This document shows, piece after piece, positions 44,085 through 63,130 of a DNA stretch of 64,000 bases. A model generated the notes under the pieces. The model searched no databases. It was not told where the DNA came from and saw only the letters and a list, made by a program, of their open reading frames with translations. The stretch covers positions 21,170 to 85,169 of the forward strand of contig JAOESH010000004.1 in assembly GCA_028382005.1 (NCBI GenBank), given 5' to 3'. This stretch comes from Pseudomonadota bacterium (lineage in GTDB: Bacteria; Pseudomonadota; Alphaproteobacteria; Puniceispirillales; Marisalimonadaceae). The translations under genes were made by a program, and so were the position numbers. Position 1 is the first letter of the stretch. Every line of letters starts with the position of its first letter.

Positions 44085-45500
44085 TTGTTGTATTCAGAAG
44101 ATCTAAATGTCGTTTATGTTAATAATGAGAAGAGATTATTATCTAATATAGATCACGATATCACCTTGCTTGATTGGCTTAGAACAAATCAAAAATTAAA
44201 GGGAACTAAAGAAGGTTGTGCAGAAGGTGATTGTGGAGCATGCTCAGTTCTAGTTCATGACGGTCTTAATTCTGAAGTAAAACCTATTAATTCTTGTTTA
44301 GTTAGATTAGGCCAAGTTGTCGGAAAAGGTATTATTACTGTTGAAGGCGTAGGCAATGAAAAAAAACCTCATCCTCTGCAAACTGCTTTTATAAAAGAAA
44401 ATGCTTCACAATGTGGATATTGCACACCAGGTTTTATAATTTCAGGTATCTCATTATTAAATTCTAAAAAAGATGTGAATGATAATTCAATTAATGATGC
44501 AATTTCAGGTAATTTATGCAGGTGTACGGGTTATTCACCAATAGTAAAAGCATTAAAATCTGTTGCTAATAATAATAAAGAAATTAAGCCTAAACATTTT
44601 GTAGAACAAAATAATGATATCCAATTAGGTATGGTAACTTACTGTAACCCCATAAATTTAGGCGAATTAAAACAACTAACTAATAAAAAAAACTTTAGGT
44701 TCTTAGCTGGCGGAACAGACTTAAACTTACAAAGACCTATTATAAATGAAGTTAAAAATACGATCATTAACTTAAGTAATATAAAAGAATTAAAAGAGAT
44801 AGAAATTCAGGGTAATAACCTTCTTTTAGGCAGTGCTGTAAGTATAGAAGATTTTTTAGAAATTATTAAGGATAAGATACCAGAGTTAATAGAACTTTTG
44901 CAAAGATTTGGGTCACCACAAATACGAAATCAAGGTACTATTGGTGGTAATTTATGTACATCTAGTCCAATTGGAGACATAGCTCCTGTACTTTTGGCTT
45001 TGAATTCAAAATTAAATATTTTTAGTCGTGAAGGTACAAAAAAAGTTTATTTAAGAGATTTTTACACTGGCTATAGAAAAAATATCCTAAATAAAGATGA
45101 GATTATAAGTTCAATTGAAATACCTTTGCCAAAAAAAGATTACAATCTTTTTTGCTGGAAGTTATCAAAAAGATATGACCAAGACATTTCTACAATTTCT
45201 CTTACGGTTTATATTAAAATTAAAGATCAAATTATTGATGACATTCATCTTGCGGCAGGAGGTATTGCTGAAATCCCAAAGACGCTTGAGGGTCTTTGTA
45301 AAGATATGATAGGACAAGAATTAGATAAATCAATTTCATTAGCCATTAATGACATTAAAAGTCATATTAAGCCTATTTCAGATATAAGAGGAACTGCAGA
45401 TTATAGAATTGAAGCCTTTAGAGGACTATTCAAAAGACTACAAAAATGCTTAGTTGATGATGTAAATACTTTGTCAATAATGGAATATAATGATGAATAA
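44085..45500 (+). CDS. xdhA: Xanthine dehydrogenase small subunit (2Fe-2S and FAD domains)
   Basis: Electron-transfer subunit of the molybdenum xanthine dehydrogenase. Residues 1-160 hold two [2Fe-2S] motifs: CAEGDCGACSVLV, and CGYCTPGF with CRCTGYSP. The FAD domain follows (FLAGGTDLNLQRP, then GSPQIRNQGTIGGNLCTSSPIGD). 471 aa is normal for XdhA. TTG 44085 is taken as start with TTAGGT upstream. The stop overlaps xdhB by 11 bases. The insertion chaperone gene xdhC is not in the window. Confidence 0.94.
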   Translation: MLYSEDLNVVYVNNEKRLLSNIDHDITLLDWLRTNQKLKGTKEGCAEGDCGACSVLVHDGLNSEVKPINSCLVRLGQVVGKGIITVEGVGNEKKPHPLQTAFIKENASQCGYCTPGFIISGISLLNSKKDVNDNSINDAISGNLCRCTGYSPIVKALKSVANNNKEIKPKHFVEQNNDIQLGMVTYCNPINLGELKQLTNKKNFRFLAGGTDLNLQRPIINEVKNTIINLSNIKELKEIEIQGNNLLLGSAVSIEDFLEIIKDKIPELIELLQRFGSPQIRNQGTIGGNLCTSSPIGDIAPVLLALNSKLNIFSREGTKKVYLRDFYTGYRKNILNKDEIISSIEIPLPKKDYNLFCWKLSKRYDQDISTISLTVYIKIKDQIIDDIHLAAGGIAEIPKTLEGLCKDMIGQELDKSISLAINDIKSHIKPISDIRGTADYRIEAFRGLFKRLQKCLVDDVNTLSIMEYNDE

Positions 45501-47775
45501 AGTTGCTTTTCATGACTCCTCTATCAGGCACACCACTGGTCAGGCAATTTATATTGATGATATTCCAGATCAAGAAAACTTGTTACATGGAGGACTTGTT
45601 CTTTCTAAGTGTGCTTTCGGAAAAATTAAAAAAATAAATTATAGTAAGTTAAGTAATTTACCATTTTATACAAAAATTATAATGGCAAAAGATATTCCTG
45701 GTGAAAACGAGATTGGTCCCATTAAAAATGGAGAACCTATTCTTGCTGAAGATATAATTACATATTACGGTCAACCAGTTGCAATAATTCTAGCAAATAC
45801 GCATCAAGAAGCAATATACGCTGCAAATCTAGTTGAAGTTGAAATAGAGTTTATAGATGATCCAATTCTTACACTTGACGAGGCGTACTCTAAAAAATCA
45901 TTTTTGGATGATCCCATTATTTTAGAAAAGGGTTCAGTTGAAAATGAAATGGATCGTTCTAAGTTTAAAGTATCGGATAGTTTTGAAATTGGTGGTCAGG
46001 ACCATTTTTATTTAGAAACACATGTTGCACTAACTTTTCCAGGTGAAAATAATGAATACACGGTTTGGTCAAGTACGCAACATCCAACTGAGGTACAGCA
46101 TGGAGTTGGAAAGGTTTTAAAAGTTCCGTCAGCTAAAATCGATAGTAAAGTTCGAAGGTTAGGAGGAGGTTTTGGGGGTAAAGAAAGTCAGGCAACAATA
46201 TTTGCAGCAATGTCTGCTTTGTGTGCATTTGTTACTCAACAACCTGTAAAAATCCGTCTTAATCGGCATGATGATATGACTGCATCAGGAAAAAGACACA
46301 ACTTTAAGATATATTTTACAGTTGGTTTCTCAAGTAAAGGAAAGATAAATGCTCTTGATTTAAAGCTATTAAGTAATGGTGGAAATGTTTTGGATCTTTC
46401 AGGCCCAGTTATGACAAGAGCTTTAACCCATTTAGATAATTGTTATTTTATAAAATCCATTAAGGCTATTGGGTATATTTGTAAAACAAACACAGTTTCC
46501 AATACAGCCTTTAGAGGATTTGGTGGACCTCAAGGTATGCTTGCTATTGAAAATATTATTTATAGTGTGGCCCAGTTTTTAAAAAAACCGTTAGATGAAA
46601 TCAGGCACGTTAATTATTATTCCAAGTCAAATGGTCTTACCACACCTTATGGGCAAGTTGTCACAAAACCAAGAATTGATAGAGTTATTAAAGAAATTTA
46701 TGAATTCAGTGATTATCATAAAAGATTGCAAACAATAAAAAAATTTAATTTAGATCAAACAAGAAACAAATTACCTTTTAGAAAAGGACTTGCTCTTATG
46801 CCTGCAAAGTTTGGCATATCATTTAATAAGCCTTCTTTTAATCAGGCAGGAGCGTTAGTTCATATATACTCTGATGGATCGGTTCGATTAAATCATGGTG
46901 GAACAGAAATGGGGCAGGGGTTATTCGTTAAGGTAGCTCAAGTTGTTGCAGAATGTTTTAAAATTCCACTTGATCAAATACATATCACCTCTACTAATAC
47001 AGCTGAGGTTCCTAATACATCTGCAACGGCGGCCTCATCTGGTTCGGATTTAAACGGAATGGCTGCTTGGGATGCTGCATCTAAAATAAAAAATAGAATG
47101 ATAAATCATGCCTCTCAATTATTTCAGAAGCATAAGTCAGAGATAATTTTTGAAAATGGTAGAATATTAGCGGGTAATAAAAGTTTGTCATTTTCAGAAT
47201 TAACATTTTCTTGTTGGGAAAATAGAATTTCACTTTCCTCAACAGGTTTTTATAAAACTCCAAAAATACATTGGGATCAAGGTAAGTTAAAAGGTCATCC
47301 TTATTTTTACTTTACGTGGGGAGCTGCTGTATCAGAAGCTTTAATAGATATTAATACAGGAGAAAGTAGAATACTTCAGGCAGATATTATTCAAGATTGT
47401 GGTAATTCACTTAATGAAAATATTGATATTGGTCAAATTGAAGGTGGTTTTATTCAAGGTCTTGGTTGGTTGACATGTGAAGAGCTTCATTTCTCTCAAG
47501 ATGGAAAGTTACTAACTACAGGGCCTTCAACTTATAAGTTACCTGGTAGTAGAGACGCCCCACCAAAGTTTAAAGTCAAATTACTTGAAAATGCAGATAA
47601 TGATGAAAAAACTATTTTTAGATCTAAGGCTGTTGGAGAGCCACCAATATTATTAGCTATTTCACATTTATTAGCTCTGAAGGACGCTATTAAAGCAGCT
47701 AATCCATTATCAAGACCAGAATTGTTAAACTCACCAGCTACTCCTTCAGAAATTTTAAAAGTTATTAGAGCTTAA
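45490..47775 (+). CDS. xdhB: Xanthine dehydrogenase large (molybdopterin) subunit
   Basis: Hydroxylates hypoxanthine or xanthine to urate. The 761-aa subunit keeps all three purine-site residues of true xanthine dehydrogenases: Glu in LGGGFGGKES, Arg in NTAFRGFGGPQG, and the base Glu in KAVGEPPILLA near the C-terminus. Other cofactor loops: GGTEMGQGLFVKVAQV and ATAASSGSDLNG. So it is more likely XDH than an aldehyde or CO oxidase. It overlaps xdhA and is followed after 81 bp by the purine permease. Confidence 0.96.
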   Translation: MMNKVAFHDSSIRHTTGQAIYIDDIPDQENLLHGGLVLSKCAFGKIKKINYSKLSNLPFYTKIIMAKDIPGENEIGPIKNGEPILAEDIITYYGQPVAIILANTHQEAIYAANLVEVEIEFIDDPILTLDEAYSKKSFLDDPIILEKGSVENEMDRSKFKVSDSFEIGGQDHFYLETHVALTFPGENNEYTVWSSTQHPTEVQHGVGKVLKVPSAKIDSKVRRLGGGFGGKESQATIFAAMSALCAFVTQQPVKIRLNRHDDMTASGKRHNFKIYFTVGFSSKGKINALDLKLLSNGGNVLDLSGPVMTRALTHLDNCYFIKSIKAIGYICKTNTVSNTAFRGFGGPQGMLAIENIIYSVAQFLKKPLDEIRHVNYYSKSNGLTTPYGQVVTKPRIDRVIKEIYEFSDYHKRLQTIKKFNLDQTRNKLPFRKGLALMPAKFGISFNKPSFNQAGALVHIYSDGSVRLNHGGTEMGQGLFVKVAQVVAECFKIPLDQIHITSTNTAEVPNTSATAASSGSDLNGMAAWDAASKIKNRMINHASQLFQKHKSEIIFENGRILAGNKSLSFSELTFSCWENRISLSSTGFYKTPKIHWDQGKLKGHPYFYFTWGAAVSEALIDINTGESRILQADIIQDCGNSLNENIDIGQIEGGFIQGLGWLTCEELHFSQDGKLLTTGPSTYKLPGSRDAPPKFKVKLLENADNDEKTIFRSKAVGEPPILLAISHLLALKDAIKAANPLSRPELLNSPATPSEILKVIRA

Positions 47776-47856
47776 CAAGTTAAGTAACTTTAGTTTGTGT
47801 TCATCTATATATTGTGATTTGATTTTATAGTTTAACAACATATAGGGGAGGTAAAT

Positions 47857-49185
47857 ATGAGTACCTTAGAAAATGTTTCTAAAGAAGATCTTAAAAATCC
47901 TGATTATGTTCCACCTTTACAAGTTGGAATAATACTCGGTTTACAACATGTTTTAGCAATGTTTGTAAGTAATGTAACTCCATCAATTATAATTGCTGGT
48001 GTTGCAGGATTTGCATTTGGAAGTGCCGATACTGTCTTTTTAATACAGATGTCGATGCTATTTGCTGGTATAGCAACTTTAATGCAAACAATAGGTTTTG
48101 GTCCAGTAGGGGCTAGACTTCCAGTTATGCAAGGTACTAGTTTTGCCTTTGTACCAGTTATGATTGGAGCCGCTAAAATGGGTATGGGAACCCTGTTTGG
48201 TGGAATAGTCATTGGAGGTTTGTTTCACGCTTTTATGGGGTTGTTCATTGGCAAAATAAGACATTGGTTTCCTCCGCTCGTATCTGGAATAATTATTTTG
48301 GCAATTGGTATTTATCTAATCCCAGTTGGTATTCAATATGCTGCTGGTGGGGCAGGCGATTTTAATATGTCGAAACCGACCTGGGGAGGTCTAGGCAATT
48401 GGAGTCTAGCAATAATTGTTATATTAGTATCTTTTGGATTAAAATTTTGGACAAAAGGTATTATTTCAAGCTCATCAGTACTTTTAGGAATGATTGTAGC
48501 TTATATCATCGCTATTTTAATGGGAGACGTAAACTTCTCTGGTGTTAGTAAAGCTGCATGGTTTGCCTTGCCAGAACCATTTAAGTATGGTTTTGATATT
48601 AACTTGACTGTAATTATAGCCATGTGCCTTATGTCTATTGTAAGTGCAATTGAGACCGTTGGAGATATCTCAGGTATAGCCAAAGGTGGAGCCAATCGAG
48701 AAGCTACAGACAAAGAACTTCAAGGTGGTACCTACGCTGATGGAATAGGTACTGCAGTTGCTGGAATTTTTGGAGGTTTACCAAATACTAGTTTTAGCCA
48801 AAATGTTGGTTTAATTTCTATGACTGGTGTAATGAGCAGATCTGTTGTTACTATAGCAGCCATTTTTCTAATACTTTGTGGTCTCGTTCCTAAAATAGGC
48901 TCACTAGTTTCTTCTATGCCAATAGCCGTGTTAGGAGGGGGAGTTATTGTCATGTTTGGTATGGTTGCATCTGCAGGTATAAATATGCTTAGTAGTGTAA
49001 ATTGGAATAGAAGGAATATGATGATATTTGCTATTTCTTTATCTATAGGTTTTGGATTACAAAAAGTTCCTGCTTCTGTTCAAGGATTAGGAGGAGATCT
49101 TCAAATGCTTATGACATCTGGCTTATTACCAGCTGCTTTTTTAGCTGTTTTATTAAATATTATTTTACCAGAGGAAGATAAATAA
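47857..49185 (+). CDS. NCS2-family xanthine/uracil permease
   Basis: A 442-aa inner-membrane permease with about 14 helices. The NCS2 signature regions are FGPVGARLPVMQGTSFAFVP, and near residue 290 GIFGGLPNTSFSQNVGLISMTGV, close to the XanQ/UapA purine-specific pattern. It brings in xanthine, urate or uracil with protons; position after xdhAB makes xanthine or urate most likely. A GGGGAGG ribosome site precedes the ATG. It ends with a strong terminator. Confidence 0.93.
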   Translation: MSTLENVSKEDLKNPDYVPPLQVGIILGLQHVLAMFVSNVTPSIIIAGVAGFAFGSADTVFLIQMSMLFAGIATLMQTIGFGPVGARLPVMQGTSFAFVPVMIGAAKMGMGTLFGGIVIGGLFHAFMGLFIGKIRHWFPPLVSGIIILAIGIYLIPVGIQYAAGGAGDFNMSKPTWGGLGNWSLAIIVILVSFGLKFWTKGIISSSSVLLGMIVAYIIAILMGDVNFSGVSKAAWFALPEPFKYGFDINLTVIIAMCLMSIVSAIETVGDISGIAKGGANREATDKELQGGTYADGIGTAVAGIFGGLPNTSFSQNVGLISMTGVMSRSVVTIAAIFLILCGLVPKIGSLVSSMPIAVLGGGVIVMFGMVASAGINMLSSVNWNRRNMMIFAISLSIGFGLQKVPASVQGLGGDLQMLMTSGLLPAAFLAVLLNIILPEEDK

Positions 49186-49259: not shown

Positions 49260-50612
49260 ATGTCTAATATCTTAATAAAAAATGCTAAAATTATAGCAAC
49301 TATGGATGACAATCAAAATGAAATTGTTAACCAATCTATTTACTGTGAAAATGGAAAAATTATCGAAATTGGTGAATGTAACAACGAAAATTATGATAGT
49401 AAGTATACCATAAATGCCTCAGAAATGGTTGTAATACCAGGTCTCATTAATACACATCATCATTTATTTCAAAATTTAACTCGTTGCTATACAAACGCTC
49501 AAAATGAATCATTGTTTGGTTGGTTAACAAGTTTATATCCAATTTGGAATAAAATAATTCCTTCTGATATTTATATTTCATCTTTAATAGGCTTATCAGA
49601 AATGGTAATGAGTGGGTGTACCACTTCAAGTGATCATCTGTATCTTTTTCCTAATGGTTCTAAACTTGAAGACCAAATTGAAGCCGCTAAAAATGTAGGT
49701 TGTAGGTTTCATGCAACTAGAGGTTCAATGAGTATTGGGGTTAGTAAAGGAGGGTTGCCACCTGACACTCTTGTAGAAGAAGAAAACTTTATATTAAAGG
49801 ATTGTCAAAGAGTTATTGAAACGTTTCATGATGATTCTGACTTATCAATGTTAAAAATAGCTTTAGCTCCATGTTCACCATTTAGTGTGAGTCAAAATTT
49901 GATGAGAGAGACAGCAATTTTAGCTAGAGATTTTTCTGTGGGAATGCATACCCACTTAGCAGAAAATAAAGAAGATATAATTTACACCCAGGAAAATTTT
50001 GGTATGCGACCAGGGCAATATATTGAAGAATTGGGATGGCTTGGAAATGACGTTTGGCATGCTCATTGTGTTCAATTAGATCAAAGTGAAATAAGTTTGT
50101 TTGCAAACACAGGTACAGGAATAGCTCATTGTCCTTGTTCGAATATGCGTTTAGCAAGTGGTATTGCTCCTTTACGAAACTGGATTGATTCAGGTGTTAA
50201 TGTTGGATTAGGTGTTGATGGATCAAGTTCTAATGATAGTGGCCATCTTTTAAATGAAGCTCGTCAAGCTATGCTCTTACAAAGAGTTAATCTTGGAGCA
50301 GATAAATTTTCTGCTCGAGAAGCACTATATACTGCTACAAGAGGTGGAGCCAAGGTTCTTAATAGAAATGACATAGGACAAATTGCGGTCGGTAAGGCTG
50401 CAGATTTTGCTATTTACGATCTTAATCAAATTTCATTGTCTGGAACTTGGAGTGATCCATTAGCTGGTTTAGTGTTTTGTTCACCTATGCATACAGCGTA
50501 TACGATATGTAATGGAAAAATCATTTCTGAGACAGGTAATATGTGTAATTTTGATATAGGTATTTCACTTGATGAACATAAGTCGGCATCAAAAAGATTG
50601 CTAGATTTATAA
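49260..50612 (+). CDS. Amidohydrolase, guanine/8-oxoguanine deaminase type
   Basis: A 450-aa zinc amidohydrolase of the cytosine/guanine deaminase superfamily. Metal ligands and catalytic residues are in LINTHHHLFQNLTR, MHTHLAENKED, WHAHCVQLD and GVDGSSSNDSG. QNLTRCY and GCTTSSDHLYLFPNG fit the 8-oxoguanine deaminase/hydroxydechloroatrazine hydrolase branch, so it probably converts 8-oxoguanine to urate or guanine to xanthine. Either product enters the island. No Shine-Dalgarno is visible before ATG 49260 because the terminator T-run fills the region. Confidence 0.88.
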   Translation: MSNILIKNAKIIATMDDNQNEIVNQSIYCENGKIIEIGECNNENYDSKYTINASEMVVIPGLINTHHHLFQNLTRCYTNAQNESLFGWLTSLYPIWNKIIPSDIYISSLIGLSEMVMSGCTTSSDHLYLFPNGSKLEDQIEAAKNVGCRFHATRGSMSIGVSKGGLPPDTLVEEENFILKDCQRVIETFHDDSDLSMLKIALAPCSPFSVSQNLMRETAILARDFSVGMHTHLAENKEDIIYTQENFGMRPGQYIEELGWLGNDVWHAHCVQLDQSEISLFANTGTGIAHCPCSNMRLASGIAPLRNWIDSGVNVGLGVDGSSSNDSGHLLNEARQAMLLQRVNLGADKFSAREALYTATRGGAKVLNRNDIGQIAVGKAADFAIYDLNQISLSGTWSDPLAGLVFCSPMHTAYTICNGKIISETGNMCNFDIGISLDEHKSASKRLLDL

Positions 50613-50615: not shown

Positions 50616-51131
50616 TTAAAAAATTAAATGTCTTATTTGATTTTCTTTGAAATGATATTCCTTTAAATTAATTGAAGGATTTTCATTTTTTTTAATCCTA
50701 TCAACAATCCAAAAATCTTGATTTTTTCTAACTAATAAAGGGTGATGCCAAATATTCTTTTTATAAGTTATACCAACGTCACCTTTTATGTGAAAACATC
50801 TCATAGTATCTAAATCTGGCATATCGTTTTTTTCCTTAGATACAACTATTAACCAATCTATATTTTGAATAGGTAAAAAGCTTTGAGAAGCAATAGGGTG
50901 TTTTTCCATTATTTTTATTTCAACAGGTATATTTCTTGGAGATCCTGAAAAAATTGAAATTGCAGAAATTCCATCTTCATTGTTTAATTCTAAATCTGAA
51001 ATATTGTGATGTCTGACTGTAGTACCTTGATTTATAGAAATTTTTTTAAAAGCTGATTCTTTAGATATTAAATGTCCAAATTCAGAAAAATTATCTAAGT
51101 TTATATTTTCAATTTTAATCTTGTTAATCAT
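50616..51131 (-). CDS. allA: Ureidoglycolate lyase
   Basis: Splits (S)-ureidoglycolate to glyoxylate and urea. The 171-aa cupin-like AllA family protein has FSEFGHLIS at the start, VEIKIMEKHPIASQSFLPI, FHIKGDVGITYKKNIWHHPLL in the core, and WIVDRI. Length is normal. It overlaps the allantoicase gene by eight bases and is the last gene of the minus-strand operon. It converges with the deaminase gene, only three bases apart. Confidence 0.93.
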   Translation of the reverse strand: MINKIKIENINLDNFSEFGHLISKESAFKKISINQGTTVRHHNISDLELNNEDGISAISIFSGSPRNIPVEIKIMEKHPIASQSFLPIQNIDWLIVVSKEKNDMPDLDTMRCFHIKGDVGITYKKNIWHHPLLVRKNQDFWIVDRIKKNENPSINLKEYHFKENQIRHLIF

Positions 51132-52119
51132 CTAACTTTGTCCCAAATATTCTTAGTCTGGAAACTCCTCCATCTGGGTAAATATTCAATCTAATATGTG
51201 TGGCTTCATTTTTTGAATTTGAATTAATTTTATATTTATGGATATTGTCTGCACTTAACTTTGTTTCATTCAATATGATATTCCAATTCTCTGAGTTTTG
51301 AATAAGGTCTTTCGTTGTTATATTTTTATCAATAGATGTCGCTTGAATTGATGCTCGATCAGGATAATTGCCTTTAAAATGGGCCGTATCAATTTCAATT
51401 TTTTCAATATTACCTTTTTGAGCTAATTTGATAATGATCCAATCATTACCCGGTTCACGTCTTCTTCTTGTTTCCCAGCCATCACCCATTGTCTTTCCTC
51501 TTCCATCTGAAAGAAGTGCAGAAACGTCACCATAATGAGCATTATTATAAGCTAGAATAGATCCGCCTAGTTTTAAGGAAGATAATTCTATTATTTCATC
51601 ACTATTGAATTGCTTCCAGTTATATTTAACTTCTCCAAATAACCTAATTCTAGCAACACCGCCGTCGGGAAATATTTGTAATCTTATAAAATTAAGTGTT
51701 TCTTTTAAATTTAATTCAAAATTATTCTTACAATCGCCAATTAAGCTAGTTTTATCTATTAAAGTCGTCCAATTAGAATCTTTATCTGGTTCAGTCTCGC
51801 TATATATTCCTTCTAAAGAAAAAAAAGGAGGAAAGTTTCCAGTAAAATAACTCGTATCTATTTCTATCTTAGATATTATACCAGCTGAACCAAGTTTTAT
51901 AATTGCCCAGTCATTTCCTCCATCACGGCGTCTTTTACTTTCCCATCCATCCATCCACTTTCCATGATTATCATATTTATCTTCGATAAATATTGGGTCT
52001 TTATCATTTAACATTCTTGTAACTTCACCAAAAAAGTCGTCAGAAAAGGCTAATATTTTTGTTCCCATTTTAGGAGAAGCAAGATTAACTAAACCCTTAA
52101 TTGCACTATCTATAGTCAT
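51124..52119 (-). CDS. alc: Allantoicase
   Basis: Hydrolyses allantoate to ureidoglycolate and urea. Two homologous beta-sandwich repeats, as in the known enzyme: DGWESKRRRDGGNDWAIIKLG near residue 65 and DGWETRRRREPGNDWIIIKLA near residue 223; each is followed by a KIEIDT(S/A)(Y/H)F segment. ATG 52119 (331 aa) has AGGA nine bases upstream and is chosen over 52152. It follows the hydantoinase-like gene in the operon. Confidence 0.94.
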   Translation of the reverse strand: MTIDSAIKGLVNLASPKMGTKILAFSDDFFGEVTRMLNDKDPIFIEDKYDNHGKWMDGWESKRRRDGGNDWAIIKLGSAGIISKIEIDTSYFTGNFPPFFSLEGIYSETEPDKDSNWTTLIDKTSLIGDCKNNFELNLKETLNFIRLQIFPDGGVARIRLFGEVKYNWKQFNSDEIIELSSLKLGGSILAYNNAHYGDVSALLSDGRGKTMGDGWETRRRREPGNDWIIIKLAQKGNIEKIEIDTAHFKGNYPDRASIQATSIDKNITTKDLIQNSENWNIILNETKLSADNIHKYKINSNSKNEATHIRLNIYPDGGVSRLRIFGTKLDD

Positions 52120-52139
52120 AATTAATAATCCTGAATTAT

Positions 52140-53546
52140 TTAGAGTAAACAAAAATCTCTTGAAACATATTTACCAAGGTTCTTTTGTGTAATAAATTTA
52201 TTTTGTTCGTATATTTTTTGACCCCTTAACCAGGTTTGAATTGGCCAACCTTTAATTTCTAAATTTTCGTATGGAGTATAGTCTGATCCGTGATGAAGGT
52301 CAGCTTGTTTAATTTTTTTTACCTTGTTTGGATCCCAAACAGTTAAATCTGCATCACCACCTATTTTAATAGAACCTTTTTGTGGATATAATCCATACAT
52401 CTTTGCAGGGTTTGTAGAAGTTAACTCAACAAATCTTTCAATTGAAATTCTATTTTTACTAACGCCTTCAGAGAATAAGATTGGAAGCCTAGTTTCTACA
52501 CCAGGTATTCCATTAGGAACCCATTTAAAAGAAGTTCGTGCTCCTGGCCGATCTTTTCCTTTTTTATCTTTAAATTTAAAAGGGCAGTGATCTGAAGAAA
52601 AAATATCAAAAGTTCCATCAATTATTCCTTCCCATATTGCTTCTTGACTTTCTTTATCTCTTGGAGGTGGAGAGCATACATATTTAGCGCCCTCAAAGTC
52701 CATATTAAGTCCTTTCATATCATCTTCAGTTAGGCAGATATATTGAGGACATGTTTCTGAAAAAACCTTAATACCATTTTCTTTAGCCCATTTTATTTGA
52801 GAGAGAGCTTCATTTCCTGACACATGAACTATTACTATTGGTATATCAACAATTTGTGCATGACTGATAGCTCTGTGAGTGGCTTCTCGTTCCACTATCT
52901 GAGGTCTTGATAATCCATGATAGTAAGGAGCTAATTTACCCTCATCTTCTAATTTTTTAGTTAAATATCTTATAGCATCATAACCTTCTGCATGAACCAT
53001 AACCAATGTTTTTTCTTTTTTTGCAACTTCAAAAACTTTTAATAGTTCTTCATCATTTAATACAAGGTCATCGTATGTCATGAAAACTTTGAAAGAAGTA
53101 TATCCATCTCTAGCTAATGCAGGAAGCTCTTGTCCCAAAACTTGCGGTGATGGATCACTAATTATCAAATGAAAAGAAGTATCCACAAATAAATTATCCT
53201 TAGCTTTTGCATGATAATTTTCTACACATTCTCTTAAGGACTGACCTTTTTCCTGCATAGCAAATGGTAATACTGTTGTTGATCCACCAGCTGCTGCAGA
53301 CATTGTGGCGCTTTGAAAGTTATCAGCCATTTCGACATCAGGTCCTGAAGGTTGATCGATATGTACATGTGCATCTATTCCACCCGGAAGAATAATTAAA
53401 TCCGAAGCATCTTCTATAACTTTGGCATTTTTATTTAATTGACCTAATGCACAAATTTTTCCATCAGAGATACCAATGTCACAATTTTCCGTACCCTTTT
53501 CAGTAACCACTCTACCGTTAGTTAGAATAATATCTAGATTTTCCAT
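52140..53546 (-). CDS. Dihydropyrimidinase/D-hydantoinase family amidohydrolase, probable allantoinase
   Basis: A 468-aa zinc cyclic-amidohydrolase. Metal ligands: DAHVHIDQP, carboxylated Lys in SFKVFMTYDD, MVHAEG, IVIVHVSGNEAL, and Asp in FSSDHCPF. By sequence it looks like HydA/dihydropyrimidinase more than AllB. Yet it lies between puuD and alc in an operon that otherwise encodes every step from urate to glyoxylate, and no AllB or PuuE is present; allantoin is itself a hydantoin. I infer that it opens allantoin to allantoate. Dihydrouracil hydrolysis is the alternative, less likely as no preA/preT or beta-ureidopropionase gene is nearby. Confidence 0.88.
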   Translation of the reverse strand: MENLDIILTNGRVVTEKGTENCDIGISDGKICALGQLNKNAKVIEDASDLIILPGGIDAHVHIDQPSGPDVEMADNFQSATMSAAAGGSTTVLPFAMQEKGQSLRECVENYHAKAKDNLFVDTSFHLIISDPSPQVLGQELPALARDGYTSFKVFMTYDDLVLNDEELLKVFEVAKKEKTLVMVHAEGYDAIRYLTKKLEDEGKLAPYYHGLSRPQIVEREATHRAISHAQIVDIPIVIVHVSGNEALSQIKWAKENGIKVFSETCPQYICLTEDDMKGLNMDFEGAKYVCSPPPRDKESQEAIWEGIIDGTFDIFSSDHCPFKFKDKKGKDRPGARTSFKWVPNGIPGVETRLPILFSEGVSKNRISIERFVELTSTNPAKMYGLYPQKGSIKIGGDADLTVWDPNKVKKIKQADLHHGSDYTPYENLEIKGWPIQTWLRGQKIYEQNKFITQKNLGKYVSRDFCLL

Positions 53547-54791: not shown

Positions 54792-55145
54792 TTAACTTCC
54801 CCTATAAGTACTGTAACCAAAAGGTGATAAAAGTAATGGGACGTGATAATGCTCAAGTTTATTAATTACATTAAACCTAATAGGAATTTGATTTAAAAAT
54901 AAATTTTTATCTAAATTTATATATTCTTTTTTTAAATAATCACCTGCAAAAAATAATAGCTCATAGTTTATTTCTTCTAAATTTTCTGCTGATATTAATG
55001 GTCCTTCAACTCTACCGTCTTCATTAGTTACAAATTTTCCAATTAAAAACTTTTCTAATTTGTTTATTTTGAATAATTGAATTTTAACTTTTGAAGCAGG
55101 TTTGCCTTTACTAGTGTCAAGAACGTGTGTAGTTAATCCAGCCAT
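54792..55145 (-). CDS. uraH: 5-hydroxyisourate hydrolase (transthyretin-like)
   Basis: Hydrolyses HIU to OHCU. The 117-aa protein has catalytic His in GLTTHVLD, Arg in EDGRVEGPL, His in HYHVPLLLSPFGYSTYRGS, and ends in the diagnostic YRGS tetrapeptide. ATG 55145 (MAGLTT) is chosen over 55160. It is the first gene of the operon uraH-puuD-hyd-alc-allA and diverges from uraD over 70 bp. No signal peptide: cytoplasmic. Confidence 0.95.
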   Translation of the reverse strand: MAGLTTHVLDTSKGKPASKVKIQLFKINKLEKFLIGKFVTNEDGRVEGPLISAENLEEINYELLFFAGDYLKKEYINLDKNLFLNQIPIRFNVINKLEHYHVPLLLSPFGYSTYRGS

Positions 55146-55174
55146 AAATTTCTCTATCAAAAGTTATATGAAGT

Positions 55175-55215: not shown

Positions 55216-55737
55216 ATGTCCAATAAAACTTTTACATTCAATTCCAAAACAATAAATCAAGATGAACTTATAGATTTACTTGAAAGTATTTATGAACATT
55301 CACCGTGGGTTCCTCTAAGGCTTTTTTCTGGTAAAATCAATAAGACTATAGATAAAGAATATTTGTATGAAAAAATGAAAGTTGTTGTTAATAATGCAAG
55401 TAAAACAGAAAAATTGAATTTAATTAGGTCTCATCCTGAATTAGGAAACAAGCTACAAAAAACAGATGAATTAACTAAATTTTCGAAGGACGAACAAAAA
55501 TCTGCTGGATTAGATCGGTGTAATGAAGAAGAATTCAAAATTTTAACTCATCTCAATCAACAATATAGAGCTCAATTTGAGTTTCCGTTTATCATTGCTG
55601 TAAAAGGCTTGTCAAAAAATAACATTATAAGTGAAATGAAAATAAGAGTTAATAGTACAAAACAAGAAGAGTTTGAAACTGCAATAAACGAAATTCATAA
55701 AATAGCCAAGTTAAGGATTTATGATCTAAATTATTGA
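55216..55737 (+). CDS. uraD: OHCU decarboxylase
   Basis: Decarboxylates 2-oxo-4-hydroxy-4-carboxy-5-ureidoimidazoline to (S)-allantoin. The 173-aa protein has YEHSPWVPLRLF and the catalytic SHPELGNKL near residue 76 (His and Glu), followed by FKILTHLNQQYRAQFEFPFIIAVKG. An AGGTGAT ribosome site precedes ATG 55216. It is the only plus-strand gene of the urate-to-allantoin steps, divergent from uraH. Confidence 0.94.
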   Translation: MSNKTFTFNSKTINQDELIDLLESIYEHSPWVPLRLFSGKINKTIDKEYLYEKMKVVVNNASKTEKLNLIRSHPELGNKLQKTDELTKFSKDEQKSAGLDRCNEEEFKILTHLNQQYRAQFEFPFIIAVKGLSKNNIISEMKIRVNSTKQEEFETAINEIHKIAKLRIYDLNY

Positions 55738-55768: not shown

Positions 55769-56473
55769 CTAAATTGGAATTCCATAATTTTTATTAGGTG
55801 GATTAGTAATTTTTTTTATTTTTAAGTCTTGTTTTGAGAGAGCTTCTAAAAGTGTTGCCGCTGCAGTAACACCTTCAACTATTGGAATATTAAATCTATC
55901 ACTAAAAATTTTTGTTAAATTAAGAATTCCTGGGCTAGTTATTATTATTGCTTCTGGGTTATCCTCAACTATAGTTCTATTAATTTCACTCTCTAATTTT
56001 TTTATATTCAATTTTGACATCGTTTCCATATCCAATATTGGTACTTCAATTGATTTCAAAGAGACGCATTTATTATCAAGATCATATTTTATCAAATTAT
56101 TTTTAAGTGCTTCATGAGATGTAGATAAGTTTGTGATAATTGAAAACTTATTTGCAATAATGTTAGCAGTGTAAAATGCTGCCTCACCTATCCCTATGAC
56201 AGGCCTAGAAGTAATTTTTCTAATAACATCTATTCCAATGTCTTCGTAGCAAGCTATGATGAAGGCATCTGAAGAATTGTTACTCTCTATCTCTTTAACA
56301 ATTTTTGAAACATTAGCTGTTTCTAGGTAATAGCTATAATAATCCTCAAAAATAGAATTTTGATTCAGGTAAACTGTTGAATTTTTGTCAATTACTTCAG
56401 AAACACATTTTTTAAGCTTGGCATTCGATTTATCTGTTGCGTATGGATTTATAATACATATTTCAATACTCAA
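55769..56473 (-). CDS. Hydantoin/Asp-Glu racemase family protein with one catalytic Cys replaced
   Basis: A 234-aa protein of the hydantoin/allantoin racemase (HyuE/HpxA) family. The first catalytic cysteine is intact in FIIACYEDIGID (Cys75). The second, usually in a GCAGM context near residue 180, reads ITSPGIL here, with Ser180. Family racemases use two opposed thiols, so racemisation by the usual two-base route looks impaired. It could use Ser180 weakly, act on one face only, as related maleate isomerase/arylmalonate decarboxylase proteins do, or bind ligand only. Eleven bases separate it from the molybdo-reductase. Confidence 0.82.
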   Translation of the reverse strand: MSIEICIINPYATDKSNAKLKKCVSEVIDKNSTVYLNQNSIFEDYYSYYLETANVSKIVKEIESNNSSDAFIIACYEDIGIDVIRKITSRPVIGIGEAAFYTANIIANKFSIITNLSTSHEALKNNLIKYDLDNKCVSLKSIEVPILDMETMSKLNIKKLESEINRTIVEDNPEAIIITSPGILNLTKIFSDRFNIPIVEGVTAAATLLEALSKQDLKIKKITNPPNKNYGIPI

Positions 56474-56484: not shown

Positions 56485-58830
56485 CTATTTATTAATTATA
56501 TTTGGTTTATCAAATATAGTAATGGGAGGTAATTCTTTAGTGAATTTTTTAATTTCAACTAATGTTGAATGAGCTGAAGGGCCTTGAGCAAGTGAAGAAG
56601 TTCCAATATCTTCAGTTAAGACATTTGGATTTCCATGAACACAAAAACTTCCGTCATCTAGTGGATCATACCATGCACCCACAGGCAAAAAAACTATACC
56701 TGGCATTACTTCATTACTTATAATAACACCGGCAAGACATTTACCTCTTTTATTAAAAATTTCAACTATGTCACCATTATTCAAATTTCGAAAATTAGCG
56801 TCTTTTATATTAATTTTTATGGGTTCTCTTCCATTAATTTTAAATTTTTGACTTTCTGATCCGTTATCAAGTTGGCTGTGTAGTCTGTTATGTGGTTGAC
56901 CAGAAATAAGTTGAAGAGGAAATTGTTTGGTAAGAGCTGATCCTAACCATTCATCTTGTTCTAACCAAGTAGGATGCCCAGGGCAGTCATCATAATTAAA
57001 ATCAGCAACAGTCTTAGAAAATATTTCAATTTTACCTGATGGTGTTGGTATAGGGTTATTTATGGGATCTTTTCTGAACTCTTCTAGAAGAATAGTTTGT
57101 TTCGTGGGAGATAAAACTTCTTGAAATCCATTTTTCCAAAATTTATCAAATTCTTGTAGATTGAAATCAGCTTGGCTAGCACTGTCTCTTGCTTCTTCCC
57201 ATAAATGTCTTAGCCATTGGTCTTCATTACGGTTTTCAGTAAATTTTTCATTAATATTTAGTTTTGCTGAGATAGCAGAAAAGATTTCATAATCAGATTT
57301 AGATTCACCTATTGGCTCAATGACTTTATGCATTGGAGATATTGTTTGGTCCCAATGTCTTATACCAATATCATTTCTCTCTAAAGAGGTAGTTGCAGGC
57401 AAAACTATATCTGCATGTCTTGCCAAGCTATTCCACCAAATCTCATTAACTATAATACTATCTGGTTGTTTAAAGGCCTTCACAAGTTTTTTTAAATTCA
57501 TCTGATGATGAAAAGGATTTCCACCAGCCCAATATACTAGCTTAATGTCAGGATATTTTAGTTCTGTGCCATTATATGTAAAACCTTTTCCTGGCTCTAG
57601 AAGCATATCGGACACTCTTGCAACTGGTATAAAATCACTTACTGGATTTTGAAATTGTTCTAAGGCTGGCCATTTATGATAATTTACAGGATTACCTATA
57701 CCATTTTCGGCACTATAGCCTAGTCCAAATCCTCCGCCAGGAAGACCTATTTGTCCTAACATGCAAGCTAAAACAGTAATCATCCAATGAGATTGCTCTC
57801 CATATTGTTGTCTTTGTAAGGCCCATGCTCCTGTTATCATGGTTCTTTTTTTAGACATCTGTTTTGCTAAATCATATATAGTATTACTTGGTATTCCTGT
57901 AATTTTGGAGGCCCAAAAGGGCGTTTTTGCTTTCCCGTCTGTTGTTCCTTTTAAGTAGTTACAAAAAATTTTGTAACCAGTACAATATTTATTTAGAAAA
58001 TCTTTATCTACCAAACTTTCAGTTTCGAGTATAAAAGCTACACCAAGCATAAAGGCTGTGTCTGTACCAGGTCTGATTTTAATCCAATCTGCTTTACTAA
58101 TAATATCAGCTTCCATTTCCATTGGGCTAATATTAATAAATTTAATTCCTTTTTTTTCACAACTTTTAATAAATTCTTTAGTTGTGTGTTTACCCACACC
58201 ACCTGATGTTACTTGTGAGTTTTTTAAAGGTAATCCGCCAAACATAACCATTAGCTCAGAATTATCTTTAATGTTATTCCAGTCAGTGTGTGTATCCAGA
58301 AACTTTCTGTACGATAAACCGATGACATGAGGCATAATTGTTTCGCTTGCAGCATAAGAATAAGTGTTAACCGATTTGGTGTATCCACCGTAAGAGTTAA
58401 AAAATCTATGAAGTTGACTTTGTGCATGGTGAAATCTACCAGCCGAAGCCCAACCATAGGAACCTGCATAAAAAGATTTATTTTTGTATTTCTTTTTAAT
58501 TCTGTTCATTTCAAATGACACTATGTCAATAGCTTCTTCCCATGAGACAGGAACAAAGTTATCAGATCCACGCTTTTCTCTTGATCGTTTGCCTGTAATA
58601 GACGTTTTGCTATTAGCTAATTCTTTTCGAATTTCTTTAAGGTAACCTTTACGAATATGCGGAACTTTAATTCTTAATTCATCGTCTATACTGTCTAAAA
58701 TACCATTTGCAATGGAAGATGGATCTCTATCTTTTTCATATGGCTTTATGCCAACAAGTTTTTCGTTCTCGGTCTCGGCATAATAGCTTCCCCAATGAAA
58801 AGCAGTTGGTTTTTTAATTTTATTTGGCAT
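56485..58830 (-). CDS. DMSO reductase-family molybdenum enzyme, BisC/TorZ type
   Basis: A 781-aa molybdopterin-guanine-dinucleotide oxidoreductase. Opening TAFHWGSYYAE resembles BisC/DorA; the Mo-ligand serine is probably that of GSYGWASAGRFHHAQSQLHRF near residue 130; ALQRQQYGEQSHWM and RLHSQLDNG are further family segments. No N-terminal 4Fe-4S cysteines and no Tat signal are visible, so it is likely cytoplasmic as BisC is. Relatives reduce biotin sulfoxide, methionine sulfoxide, TMAO or DMSO. Its coupling to a racemase-like protein beside purine genes is unusual and gives no clear substrate. Confidence 0.9.
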   Translation of the reverse strand: MPNKIKKPTAFHWGSYYAETENEKLVGIKPYEKDRDPSSIANGILDSIDDELRIKVPHIRKGYLKEIRKELANSKTSITGKRSREKRGSDNFVPVSWEEAIDIVSFEMNRIKKKYKNKSFYAGSYGWASAGRFHHAQSQLHRFFNSYGGYTKSVNTYSYAASETIMPHVIGLSYRKFLDTHTDWNNIKDNSELMVMFGGLPLKNSQVTSGGVGKHTTKEFIKSCEKKGIKFINISPMEMEADIISKADWIKIRPGTDTAFMLGVAFILETESLVDKDFLNKYCTGYKIFCNYLKGTTDGKAKTPFWASKITGIPSNTIYDLAKQMSKKRTMITGAWALQRQQYGEQSHWMITVLACMLGQIGLPGGGFGLGYSAENGIGNPVNYHKWPALEQFQNPVSDFIPVARVSDMLLEPGKGFTYNGTELKYPDIKLVYWAGGNPFHHQMNLKKLVKAFKQPDSIIVNEIWWNSLARHADIVLPATTSLERNDIGIRHWDQTISPMHKVIEPIGESKSDYEIFSAISAKLNINEKFTENRNEDQWLRHLWEEARDSASQADFNLQEFDKFWKNGFQEVLSPTKQTILLEEFRKDPINNPIPTPSGKIEIFSKTVADFNYDDCPGHPTWLEQDEWLGSALTKQFPLQLISGQPHNRLHSQLDNGSESQKFKINGREPIKINIKDANFRNLNNGDIVEIFNKRGKCLAGVIISNEVMPGIVFLPVGAWYDPLDDGSFCVHGNPNVLTEDIGTSSLAQGPSAHSTLVEIKKFTKELPPITIFDKPNIINK

Positions 58831-58871
58831 TCTTACCTCATATTGGATTTATATTAAATCTAAATTGAATT

Positions 58872-61826
58872 TTAGTAAATTATATTATCATCTAGAAATT
58901 TAGCAACATGCATGGCTTTCCTATTCATACCGTCTTTTATTTGACATCTACACGATGTTCCATCAGCAATGATTTTAATATCTTTTGAATTTTTTTTAAT
59001 TGCGGGGAATAATCTTTCTTCAGCCATCTTCATTGATATATCATATGTATCCTTTCCATATCCAAATGCACCAGCCATTCCACAACAACTTGTTTCAATT
59101 GTTTCAACTTCTAAACCCTCAATTTTACTTAAGATCTGCTCAATTGGTTTTACTACGTCAAATGCCTTTTGATGGCAATGTCCGTGCAGTAAAATTTTTT
59201 CATTTAATTTTTTAAACTTAATTTTTTTATTTTGCGTAGCCAATAATTCTTCGAATGTAAAAGAGTTATTTTTTAGTAGGTCAGTGTTCTTACCTTTCAA
59301 TAAAGCTGGTAATTCGTCTCTAAACGATAAGATACATGAGGGTTCTAATCCAACTACTTTAACACCCTGTAATAGGAAAGGTAAGAAAGTATCAAAAACA
59401 TTATTTGCCTCAATTTTTGCGTTTTTAATTAAGCCATTACTTAGATATGTTCTTCCACAGCATAATGAATTTTTAGTGTTTTTTGACTTTGGAATAAAAG
59501 GCGAAAAGCCGGCGGCTTTTAATACTTTTATTGCAGATCTTATATTCTCGGGTTCGTAGTATCGATTGAATGTATCAACAAATAAAATAACTGGTTTCTT
59601 ATTTCTATTTTTGTCGATTGTGTCTAATAATTCATTATCTTTAAAGTAATCACTTCTCCATTCTGGAAGAGGTCTTTTAGCAGTAAAGCCAAAAAATATT
59701 TCACTTATTTTTGCTAAGCCTGGAATTTTATCTCTAAGATTCATAATTTTAGAAAACTTTGAAGCAAATGGTGCATATTGAGGTAAGAATGCAACAAGTT
59801 TGCTATTAATATCTAAGCCATATTTTTTAGCTTTTAAATAAGACAGTTCAATTTTCATTTTTGACATGTCTACACCTGTGGGACATTCTCTTTTACAGGC
59901 TTTACATGAAACACATAGCTTCATTGTATCAGTCATATCATCGCTAATTAAAGCATCTTTCCCAAGTTGTCCTGAAAGAGCTAACCTAAGAGAATTAGCT
60001 CTTCCTCTAGTGGAATCTTTTTCATCTTTAGTAACTCTAAAAGATGGACACATTACACCGCCATCTAATTTTCTACATGATCCGTTATTATTGCACATTT
60101 CAATTGCACCCTGAAACCCACCAGCTTTACCGGGCCAATCAGACCAGTCTAAAAGTGTGTTGATATTCTCAGCGTTATATGAAGGTGCATACCTAAAAAG
60201 TTCTCTTGTATCCATTTTAGGCGAGTTAATAATTTTTCCTGGATTAAAAATATTATAAGGATCAAATGATTTTTTGACAGTTTTAAAAAAATCAATCATT
60301 TTTTTGCCAAACATCACTTCATTGAATTCGGATCTAACTATTCCGTCACCATGCTCACCGGAATAAGATCCGTTGAATTTTTTAACTAGAGCACTCGTTT
60401 CATTAGCAATATCTCTCATTTTTGAAACATCTTCATTTAGTTTCATATTTAGAACAGGTCGTACATGAAGACATCCAACAGATGCATGAGCGTACCAAGT
60501 ACCCTTAGTATTATGTTTATTAAAAATTTTATTTAATCCGTCAGTATATTCTGCCAAGTCTTTCAATTCAACAGCACAATCCTCGATAAAAGAAACTGGC
60601 TTTGCTTCTTGTTTCATAGACATCATTATGTTTAGACCTGATTTCCTCATTTCACTTACTTTTGATTGGAGGCTATCTTCTATCACATCTACAACTCCTC
60701 CATTTTTTTTATTATCTTTCCAAGAGTATCCAAGATCTCCAATTAATTGATGAAGTTTTTTTAACCTGTGAAAGTTTTCATTCATATCTTCTTCTGCAAA
60801 TTCAACTATAAGTAAAGATTTTGGATTCCCTTTTACGACTGCTTCAACTGTCGGCTTAAACATATCAATTTTTCTTGCAAGACTTAACATAGTATCATCA
60901 ACCAATTCTACTGCTACTGGGTCTAATGGAACTATATGCTGAGCTGCATCCATAGCTTCATAAAATGAAGGAAAATGACAAATACCCATAATTTTTTTAG
61001 ATGGAAGCGGTGATAACTTAAGAGTAATTGAAGATGAATAGGCTAAAGTGCCTTCAGAACCAACTAGTAAGTGTGACAAATTAATACCATCTCCTATTTT
61101 GCCATTGGGTCTACTTGCCATTGCATCTGGGATTAGTGCATCAATATTATAACCACCCACTCTTCTAAGAACTTTAGGAAATTTAGAAAGAATTTCGTTT
61201 TGATTATCTTTAGCTAATTTTAGAAGATCTACAATAATTTTAGTAGCTCCACCACTACTTGAATTAATATGATTGTTTTCTATTTTCCCAAAATTATATG
61301 TTGAACCATCAAATAATATTGCTTCTATATCAAGGACATTATCTCTCATCATTCCATATCTAATTGATCTACCACCACAACTGTTATTTCCAGCCATACC
61401 TCCAATTGTAGCCCTACTTGAAGTTGAAACGTCTACTGGAAACCATACTCCAAAAGGCTTTAAAAATCGGTTTAGCTCATCAAGCACTATTCCGGGCTCC
61501 ACTATGCATGTCATTTTATCTTTATTAAAATCTAATATTTTATTTAAAAACTTTGAATTATCTATGACTATTGCTTCATTAACTGTTTGACCACATTGAG
61601 AAGTACCTCCTCCTCTAGCTAAAAGTGGGATTTTGGCTTCTCGAGCATAATTTATAGTTTCTATTAGATCAGACTTAGTTTTTGGTATTAAAACACCATA
61701 AGGCATGATTTGATAAATTGATGCGTCTGTAGCGTATCTACCTCTGGTAAAATTATCGTAATGAACTTCAGCTGTTGTGTTATTTTTCAATTTTTTTAGT
61801 AATTGGTTTGAACTACCGTCTGGCAT
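58872..61826 (-). CDS. Fused FAD-linked oxidase and Fe-S/CCG oxidoreductase (YdiJ-like D-2-hydroxyacid dehydrogenase)
   Basis: A 984-aa two-part enzyme. Residues about 30-530: FAD-linked oxidase (GGGTSQCGQ, NNSCGGRSIRYGM, GSEGTLA), like GlcD or D-lactate dehydrogenase. Then Fe-S cysteines (CNNNGSCRK...CP, CVSCKACKRECP). C-terminal part: CCG domains with LCCGRTYL and SCCGMAGAFGYG, as in GlcF. YdiJ-type fusions oxidise D-2-hydroxyglutarate or D-lactate and pass electrons to quinone. Near genes producing and using glyoxylate, glycolate is a further candidate. A palindrome sits before its start. Confidence 0.92.
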   Translation of the reverse strand: MPDGSSNQLLKKLKNNTTAEVHYDNFTRGRYATDASIYQIMPYGVLIPKTKSDLIETINYAREAKIPLLARGGGTSQCGQTVNEAIVIDNSKFLNKILDFNKDKMTCIVEPGIVLDELNRFLKPFGVWFPVDVSTSSRATIGGMAGNNSCGGRSIRYGMMRDNVLDIEAILFDGSTYNFGKIENNHINSSSGGATKIIVDLLKLAKDNQNEILSKFPKVLRRVGGYNIDALIPDAMASRPNGKIGDGINLSHLLVGSEGTLAYSSSITLKLSPLPSKKIMGICHFPSFYEAMDAAQHIVPLDPVAVELVDDTMLSLARKIDMFKPTVEAVVKGNPKSLLIVEFAEEDMNENFHRLKKLHQLIGDLGYSWKDNKKNGGVVDVIEDSLQSKVSEMRKSGLNIMMSMKQEAKPVSFIEDCAVELKDLAEYTDGLNKIFNKHNTKGTWYAHASVGCLHVRPVLNMKLNEDVSKMRDIANETSALVKKFNGSYSGEHGDGIVRSEFNEVMFGKKMIDFFKTVKKSFDPYNIFNPGKIINSPKMDTRELFRYAPSYNAENINTLLDWSDWPGKAGGFQGAIEMCNNNGSCRKLDGGVMCPSFRVTKDEKDSTRGRANSLRLALSGQLGKDALISDDMTDTMKLCVSCKACKRECPTGVDMSKMKIELSYLKAKKYGLDINSKLVAFLPQYAPFASKFSKIMNLRDKIPGLAKISEIFFGFTAKRPLPEWRSDYFKDNELLDTIDKNRNKKPVILFVDTFNRYYEPENIRSAIKVLKAAGFSPFIPKSKNTKNSLCCGRTYLSNGLIKNAKIEANNVFDTFLPFLLQGVKVVGLEPSCILSFRDELPALLKGKNTDLLKNNSFTFEELLATQNKKIKFKKLNEKILLHGHCHQKAFDVVKPIEQILSKIEGLEVETIETSCCGMAGAFGYGKDTYDISMKMAEERLFPAIKKNSKDIKIIADGTSCRCQIKDGMNRKAMHVAKFLDDNIIY

Positions 61827-61954: not shown

Positions 61955-63130
61955 ATGAATAAAAAATATATGCCAGGGAAACATTTTTTACAATTGCCTG
62001 GACCTTCAAATGTACCCGATAGAATTTTACGTGCTATGGATTATCCTACTATAGATCATCGTGGCCCAGATTTTCCTTATTTAGCGAATGATTGTCTTAA
62101 TGGAATGAAAACAATATTCAAAACAAAATCAGATGTAATAATTTTTCCAGCTTCTGGAACAGGTGCATGGGAAGCCGCCCTAGTAAACACAATTAAGGCG
62201 GGAGATTTAGTCCTTATGGTAGAAACTGGTCATTTTGCAACTTTATGGAAGAAAATGGCTGATAAACTTGGTGTTATTACAGAGTTTTTAGAAACTGACT
62301 GGAGAAGGGGAGTTGAACCAGAAAAATTGTTAGATAGATTAAAAAAAGATACAGAAGGAAAAATCAAGGCTGTATGTGTAGTTCACAATGAAACATCTAC
62401 AGGGAGCATCTCTAGAATAAAAGAAGTAAGAGATGTAATGAATTTAGCTAATCATGAATCTTTGTTAATGGTTGATACTATTTCAGGGTTAGCTTCTATG
62501 GAATATAAACATGACGATTGGGGAGTTGATGTTACGATTTCAGGATCCCAAAAAGGCCTAATGCTACCTCCAGGGTTATCATTTAATGCAATATCTGAAA
62601 AAGCTGTTATTACTTCAAAAAAATCAGGGATGCATAGGTCCTATTGGGATTGGCAAGAACAAATAGAGGCTAATAAATCAGGCTCTTTTCCCTATACTCC
62701 GGCTACAAATCTATTGTATGGCTTAAAAGAAGCAATAAATATGCTTCACGAAGAGGGTTTAGAGAATGTTTTTAAACGTCATGATAGGCATGCAAAAGCG
62801 ACTAGGGCAGCAGTGCAAGCATGGGGATTAGAAGTTCTTTGCCAAGAAGAAAAAGATTACTCCAATGTCCTGACTGCTGTAAAATTGCCAGACGGTCATA
62901 ATGCTGATGAATTAAGAAAAATTATATTGGAAAACTTTAATATGTCTCTTGGTAACGGGTTGTCTAAACTTGCTGGAAAAGTTTTTAGAATCGGTCATTT
63001 AGGAGACTTTAATGACTTAATGTTAATGGGGACATTAACTGGTATAGAAATGGGCTTATCTTTAGCTGGTGTTCCTTATCAAAAGGGGGGAGCAGCAAGG
63101 GCTTCTGAATTTTTAATAAGTAGAAATTAG
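61955..63130 (+). CDS. Serine-glyoxylate aminotransferase family protein
   Basis: PLP-dependent class V aminotransferase converting glyoxylate and serine to glycine and hydroxypyruvate. 391 aa, normal length. N-terminal LQLPGPSNVPDRILRAMDYPTIDHRGPDF is characteristic of SgaA/AGXT; the PLP lysine is in ISGSQKGLMLPPGL near residue 200; ASGTGAWEAAL binds the cofactor phosphate. The ribosome site ATAAGGAAA precedes ATG 61955. Next to a pathway ending in glyoxylate it gives a direct route to glycine. It is followed by the malonyl-CoA decarboxylase gene after 27 bp. Confidence 0.93.
   Translation: MNKKYMPGKHFLQLPGPSNVPDRILRAMDYPTIDHRGPDFPYLANDCLNGMKTIFKTKSDVIIFPASGTGAWEAALVNTIKAGDLVLMVETGHFATLWKKMADKLGVITEFLETDWRRGVEPEKLLDRLKKDTEGKIKAVCVVHNETSTGSISRIKEVRDVMNLANHESLLMVDTISGLASMEYKHDDWGVDVTISGSQKGLMLPPGLSFNAISEKAVITSKKSGMHRSYWDWQEQIEANKSGSFPYTPATNLLYGLKEAINMLHEEGLENVFKRHDRHAKATRAAVQAWGLEVLCQEEKDYSNVLTAVKLPDGHNADELRKIILENFNMSLGNGLSKLAGKVFRIGHLGDFNDLMLMGTLTGIEMGLSLAGVPYQKGGAARASEFLISRN

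Follow-up and report, generated by a model that had tools for sequence, protein, structure and literature searches.

Genes for the catabolism of purines have been described in SAR116 and SAR11 bacteria, with urea as the main nitrogenous product; many SAR11 genomes are devoid of urease, for which release of urea has been inferred, and SAR116 variants with or without an allantoin racemase are mentioned (Braakman et al., 2025, PMC11698098). In Pseudomonas aeruginosa, purine-derived glyoxylate is reported to be converted to pyruvate via a dedicated, allantoin-inducible gene cluster (PMC12694930).

The stretch of DNA analysed here (the window; 64,000 nucleotides) is part of a genome assembly of 1.81 Mb in 65 contigs (G000; 80.7% complete). 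The named relatives of the host family form the SAR116 cluster, which identifies the host as a marine SAR116 alphaproteobacterium. Comparison within the family covered 58 genomes from four genera, and purine loci of 13–20 kb each were compared in 20 relatives. The nearest relative is G017, the PuuD of which is 88% identical; two genomes of sister genera, G004 (95% complete) and G005 (85% complete, with locus L084 assigned to it by contig coordinates), proved informative. The type of purine island found in the window is already known in SAR116 (PMC11698098).

The purine gene block and its boundaries

A preliminary description of the window had placed a purine-to-glyoxylate island at positions 44085–63130. 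All genes that it named there are intact open reading frames with a family match. The purine genes proper and the gene that bounds them on the left are:

42884..44020, plus strand: Ldh2-family dehydrogenase, bounding the purine block on the left (Pfam/NCBIfam matches)
44085..45500, plus strand: xdhA, xanthine dehydrogenase small subunit with two [2Fe-2S] clusters and FAD (Pfam/NCBIfam matches, both Fe-S motifs)
45490..47775, plus strand: xdhB, xanthine dehydrogenase molybdenum subunit (TIGR02965, 985 bits, cut-off 849.5)
47857..49185, plus strand: NCS2 xanthine permease (TIGR03173, 433 bits, cut-off 414)
49260..50612, plus strand: 8-oxoguanine/guanine deaminase (PRK08203, 643 bits, cut-off 532)
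50616..51131, minus strand: allA, urea-releasing ureidoglycolate lyase (PF04115, 153 bits)
51124..52152, minus strand: alc, allantoicase (TIGR02961, 409 bits, cut-off 278)
52140..53546, minus strand: hyd, hydantoinase/dihydropyrimidinase-family enzyme, putative allantoinase (PRK13404, 686 bits, over cut-off)
53562..54788, minus strand: puuD, membrane urate oxidase with C-terminal cytochrome c motif (PF06181, 411 bits)
54792..55160, minus strand: uraH, 5-hydroxyisourate hydrolase (TIGR02962 over cut-off; C-terminal YRGS)
55216..55737, plus strand: uraD, OHCU decarboxylase, with which the purine block ends (TIGR03164, 177 bits, cut-off 96)

Read from the sequence, the active-site motifs are intact across the pathway enzymes, with catalytic roles that we take to be those known for the respective families. 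XdhA comprises the Pfam domains Fer2, Fer2_2, FAD_binding_5 and CO_deh_flav_C, and scores 405 bits with TIGR02963, under the cut-off of 467. Its reading frame overlaps that of xdhB by 11 bp, and XdhB carries the motifs GGGFGGKE, FRGFGGPQ and GEPP. The pair displays the layout of XdhAB, with separate Fe-S/FAD and molybdenum subunits and a molybdenum site of the xanthine dehydrogenase type. The deaminase scores only 153 bits with the model of the classical guanine deaminase (TIGR02967). PuuD has the structure of the described membrane-bound type (PMC4562309), with PF06181 at residues 5–296 and a C-terminal haem motif CSMCH at residue 333. The intervals between successive minus-strand genes from uraH to allA are 3, 15, −13 and −8 bp, and uraH-puuD-hyd-alc-allA look like a single transcription unit; uraD is divergent from uraH, with 55 bp between the two.

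The preliminary description had named missing molybdenum cofactor genes as a way in which xdhAB might be without function. Such genes are present in the host genome: on contig C1, moaA scores over cut-off at 171202–172185, and an XdhC/CoxI protein is followed by a MobA-like protein at about 178842–180396. XdhC/CoxI is recognized by its Pfam domains, though TIGR02964 remains under cut-off. Two such XdhC/CoxI and MobA-like pairs are found, the second beside CO-dehydrogenase-like subunits, and both cofactor synthesis and an XdhC-type insertion factor are represented in the genome. The second pair belongs to a locus at C1:158500–166300 (L150), where CO-dehydrogenase-like molybdenum subunits have XdhC/CoxI and MobA-like genes of their own.

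A survey of the island in relatives had also been proposed. The order of the purine genes is repeated in the loci of relatives, with variants, and PuuD is present in 40 of the 58 family genomes, in all four genera and in five of the six most complete ones. Because the order recurs, the clustering of these genes is not due to chance. In the genera g2 and g4, puuD-uraH-uraD directly adjoin bisC (see below), mostly without hyd-alc-allA.

The boundaries of the block are indicated by G005, where PuuD was not found anywhere in the genome. In its locus L084, the Ldh2-family gene faces rac (see below) across about 270 bp; both flanks align to the window at 74–75% DNA identity, and window positions 44022–55859 have no counterpart there. 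This arrangement, without an intervening block, delimits the purine block as xdhA to uraD and sets rac-bisC-fad-agt-mcd apart as a separate module. As judged from gene order, the purine unit is 44085–55737 and not 44085–63130. What had been called a large investment for the genome is a modest one: some 11.7 kb out of 1.81 Mb, in an assembly of 80.7% completeness.

In most genomes of the genus, uraD and rac are set apart by an additional block, about 11 kb long (L034:10711–19901, L065). It encodes a DHDPS-like protein, a racemase-like protein without catalytic Cys, PuuE, a TRAP transporter (DctPQM), HyuA and HyuB. This block is missing from the window and from several relatives; locus L036 retains HyuAB alone.

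The neighbouring rac-bisC-fad-agt-mcd module

Three open reading frames between uraD and the aminotransferase gene (55769–61826) were not listed in the preliminary description. The module reads as follows:

55769..56473, minus strand: rac, Asp/Glu/hydantoin-racemase-like protein (PF01177)
56485..58830, minus strand: bisC, BisC/DMSO-reductase-family molybdoenzyme without Tat leader (TIGR00509, 959 bits, cut-off 1017)
58872..61826, minus strand: fad, FAD + Fe-S + CCG 2-hydroxyacid dehydrogenase, YdiJ/D-LDH/GlcD-like, 984 aa (Pfam/NCBIfam)
61955..63130, plus strand: agt, class-V glyoxylate aminotransferase, serine-glyoxylate/BhcA type (solved-relative and model scores)
63158..64000, plus strand: mcd, malonyl-CoA decarboxylase, cut by the contig end (PF05292, PF17408)

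The rac protein aligns to allantoin racemase (5lfd) and hydantoin racemase (3qvj). Of the two catalytic Cys residues of such racemases the first is kept (IIAC), while the second is replaced by Ser (IITSPG), and we reject rac as an active racemase on account of this missing residue. Alignment of the orthologues in three near relatives (L033, L035, L036) displays the loss of both. The racemase-like gene of the PuuE block is likewise without both Cys, and only a third type, found in g2 and g4, retains both.

The BisC-like protein scores under the cut-off of the BisC/S-oxide reductase subfamily TIGR00509. Its best solved relatives are the Haemophilus TorZ/MtsZ-type enzyme and the Rhodobacter DMSO reductase, with which the stretches SYGW and NTYS align. 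The FAD/Fe-S dehydrogenase scores 547 bits with the YdiJ model, the cut-off of which is 1350.

The position of these genes might suggest that purine or ureide catabolism also includes rac, bisC and fad, acting for example in allantoin racemization or in the oxidation of ureides or hydroxy acids. Consistent with this, puuD-uraH-uraD have bisC and fad next to them, or one block off, in all four genera wherever the contig continues, G005 excepted, and bisC adjoins uraD in the g2 and g4 relatives. However, G005 has all of the module but no purine block beside it, the racemase-like protein is without its second catalytic Cys here and without both in near relatives, and no purine genes adjoin the BisC relatives outside SAR116, the loci of which extend to up to 22 kb, save weak matches in two. 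We thus consider a role of the three in ureide catabolism very unlikely, and a role of BisC as a purine enzyme is rejected. The simplest reading of the BisC-like protein is a housekeeping S-oxide reductase, predicted to be cytoplasmic. One may also speculate that rac-bisC-fad-agt harbour a redox pair of a kind as yet undescribed, in which the FAD/Fe-S enzyme would oxidize a hydroxy acid of the glyoxylate node and pass the electrons to a cytoplasmic oxide reductase of the BisC type, with rac having acquired a new, non-racemase activity; we regard this as most improbable. A BisC relative with 61% identity occurs in locus L101 without fad and agt, in a record titled Hydrogenophilales, possibly a misnamed bin.

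The aminotransferase scores 352 bits with a solved serine–glyoxylate aminotransferase, versus 164 with PucG and 130 with ureidoglycine–glyoxylate aminotransferase. Ureidoglycine–glyoxylate aminotransferase of the PucG type was hence rejected as its best family. Assignment as BhcA of the beta-hydroxyaspartate cycle was also discarded (429 bits, cut-off 650), and no bhcBCD were found among the window ORFs scanned. The preliminary description had taken the aminotransferase as the glycine outlet of the island. It belongs to the module that is present in G005 at a site from which the purine block is missing, and the gene is not specific to the island. It may well receive purine-derived glyoxylate, but does not testify to an outlet of the island's own; another glyoxylate sink is malate synthase G, which scores over cut-off in the host genome.

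The route from purines and the fate of urea

Based on this dataset, we hypothesize that 44085–55737 encodes a complete, self-contained aerobic route from guanine, 8-oxoguanine and xanthine to glyoxylate and two urea. We consider it quite probable that this route operates, that urea is most likely exported, and that nitrogen is kept solely from the amino group of guanine. The NCS2 permease would bring in xanthine, while guanine or 8-oxoguanine would be deaminated to xanthine or urate. XdhAB would convert xanthine to urate, and PuuD would oxidize urate and hand the electrons to its own cytochrome c domain. UraH and UraD would then yield S-allantoin, which the hydantoinase-type enzyme may open to allantoate. 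Allantoicase and ureidoglycolate lyase would liberate two urea and one glyoxylate, the latter passing to malate (malate synthase G) and/or to glycine (aminotransferase of the neighbouring module). With urea as the exported end product, the gain to the cell would consist in electrons, two carbons and the amino nitrogen of guanine. A complete purine-to-glyoxylate/urea route had been proposed in the preliminary description, and the family matches and intact motifs bear this out, with the allantoinase step assigned from context.

This step deserves comment. The hydantoinase-type enzyme is over cut-off with the hydantoinase models PRK13404 and TIGR02033, and scores 282 bits with the AllB allantoinase model TIGR03178, under the cut-off of 358. 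By sequence it thus appears nearer to dihydropyrimidinase/hydantoinase than to AllB, which is a point against an allantoinase role. On the other hand, alc and allA follow the gene in the 20-kb loci wherever the contig continues, and most g2 and g4 loci have none of the three at puuD. This joint presence and absence suggests that the enzyme acts as allantoinase, its substrate being deduced from gene context.

By the known chemistry of this path, the four nitrogens of the xanthine ring all pass into urea, and the exocyclic nitrogen of guanine alone leaves as ammonia. The block has the urea-producing version of the pathway, with allantoicase and ureidoglycolate lyase and without ureidoglycine aminohydrolase (TIGR03214); the latter, an ammonia-yielding alternative, was not found in the five genomes searched. 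Urease elsewhere in the genome had been suggested as a check, and the outcome was negative: no match over cut-off was found in the 80.7%-complete host assembly. Urea carboxylase was not over cut-off either in the host genome, G004, G017 or G039, and the matches obtained in that search look like ordinary biotin carboxylases in extent and frame length. Neither enzyme for recovery of purine nitrogen from urea was thus detected in G000.

The position at which urease is usually found is informative. In G017, urtABCDE-ureDABCEFG are followed by genes of the sucrose-phosphorylase-like, glucosyl-3-phosphoglycerate-synthase-like and mannosyl-3-phosphoglycerate-phosphatase-family types. UrtA and UreC are over curated cut-offs, and the other urt and ure genes are named by position, size and sequence reading. 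This 20-kb locus, through which UrtA was also sought in G000 by DNA similarity, aligns to contig C11 of the host genome as two abutting flanks (17097–19728 and 19712–22234, overlapping at 19712–19728). The intervening 14.9 kb are missing in G000, the missing stretch beginning right behind one gene and ending right behind the following one. A search with the flank of G000 gave 23 genomes of the same genus that have both flanks on one contig; in all 23 the flanks are apart, with urease between them. In G004, which is of another genus and has the same purine island, the flanks are contiguous, the site is empty and no urease is over cut-off; the same flanks are also close together in g4 genomes. 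An assembly gap hiding urease at the usual site is rejected, as the flanks abut inside contig C11, and a chimeric junction in one assembly is unlikely in view of the same arrangement in G004 and the closeness of the flanks in g4. Absence of the urease/urea-transporter locus from its usual site in G000 is real, and not a contig-end artefact. The 14.9 kb missing from G000 also contain the genes of glucosylglycerate type (sucrose-phosphorylase-like, GpgS-like, MPGP-like; L152:13531–17354).

These data bear on whether the locus is an island for acquisition of both nitrogen and carbon, in which a urease elsewhere completes nitrogen recovery and the aminotransferase serves as dedicated glycine outlet. 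Urease alpha is widespread in the family (over cut-off in 36 of 58 genomes, G000 and G004 not among them), the nearest relative G017 has urease, and the aminotransferase lies near purine genes in all genera. In several g4 genomes the urease operon stands beside puuD (L050, L051, L097, L098, L108, L109), at some of these loci together with an ABC transporter, a two-Cys racemase and uracil phosphoribosyltransferase. With an assembly of 80.7% completeness, a urease outside the known contigs is conceivable. However, the usual place of the urease locus lies within a contig and is empty, G004 at 95% completeness shares both the island and the empty site, and persistence of the aminotransferase module in G005, without a purine block at that site, argues against the dedicated outlet. 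We consider this combined reading unlikely.

An empty site where the genus conserves urease points to urea as the most likely exported end product. With no urease at the site, and neither urea carboxylase nor ureidoglycine aminohydrolase found, the nitrogen of the ring would be lost from the cell as urea. Unless urease sits in the missing 19% of the assembly, the amino nitrogen of guanine alone would be recovered and urea released, as proposed for SAR11. The earlier view of purines as a nitrogen source is doubtful. For the bacterium, purines are probably a source of carbon and energy, most of their nitrogen being discarded.

Two further loci are recorded here. The host genome contains a second ureide-like cluster (C64:45000–64990; L159) with a short Urate_ox_N paralogue (204 aa), a PuuE-like deacetylase (under cut-off), two amidases, an amidohydrolase and an ABC transporter. 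In the window, positions 25147–30686 encode a BMP-type (PnrA-like) ABC transporter operon, possibly for nucleoside uptake, and beside it a 248-aa protein (25150–25893, minus strand) with no Pfam or NCBIfam match.

Comparison with known systems

For SAR11 a cryptic nitrogen cycle has been proposed, in which purine exudates of Prochlorococcus are consumed and urea is returned to phytoplankton. The empty urease site together with a complete purine-to-urea pathway would extend this logic to a second abundant group, SAR116. In the SAR116 lineages of this genus, the occupied or empty state of the site may serve as a simple predictor of whether purine nitrogen is kept or released. The residue failure of the apparent allantoin racemase is a warning against taking such a gene as evidence for the pathway.

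The BisC-like enzyme resembles the BisC/TorZ-MtsZ/DMSO reductase subfamily (TIGR00509) in fold family and in the S/N-oxide-reductase motifs SYGW and NTYS, and differs from it by the missing Tat leader, a score below the curated cut-off and linkage to an FAD/Fe-S dehydrogenase. The P. aeruginosa pathway likewise leads from purines to glyoxylate through urate and allantoin; in place of the inducible glyoxylate cluster reported there (PMC12694930), malate synthase G and the glyoxylate aminotransferase are candidate sinks here. Closest are the SAR116 and SAR11 operons (PMC11698098), which share with the present block the NCS2 permease, xanthine dehydrogenase, PuuD, uraH/hiuH, uraD, allantoicase and ureidoglycolate lyase, and urea and glyoxylate as end products. 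Unlike in those operons, the presumed allantoinase here is of the hydantoinase type and not PuuE. Added to that account are evidence from position that the urease site of a SAR116 genome is empty, the failure of the adjacent racemase-like gene in the catalytic-residue comparison, and the demarcation of the purine block from the aminotransferase module.
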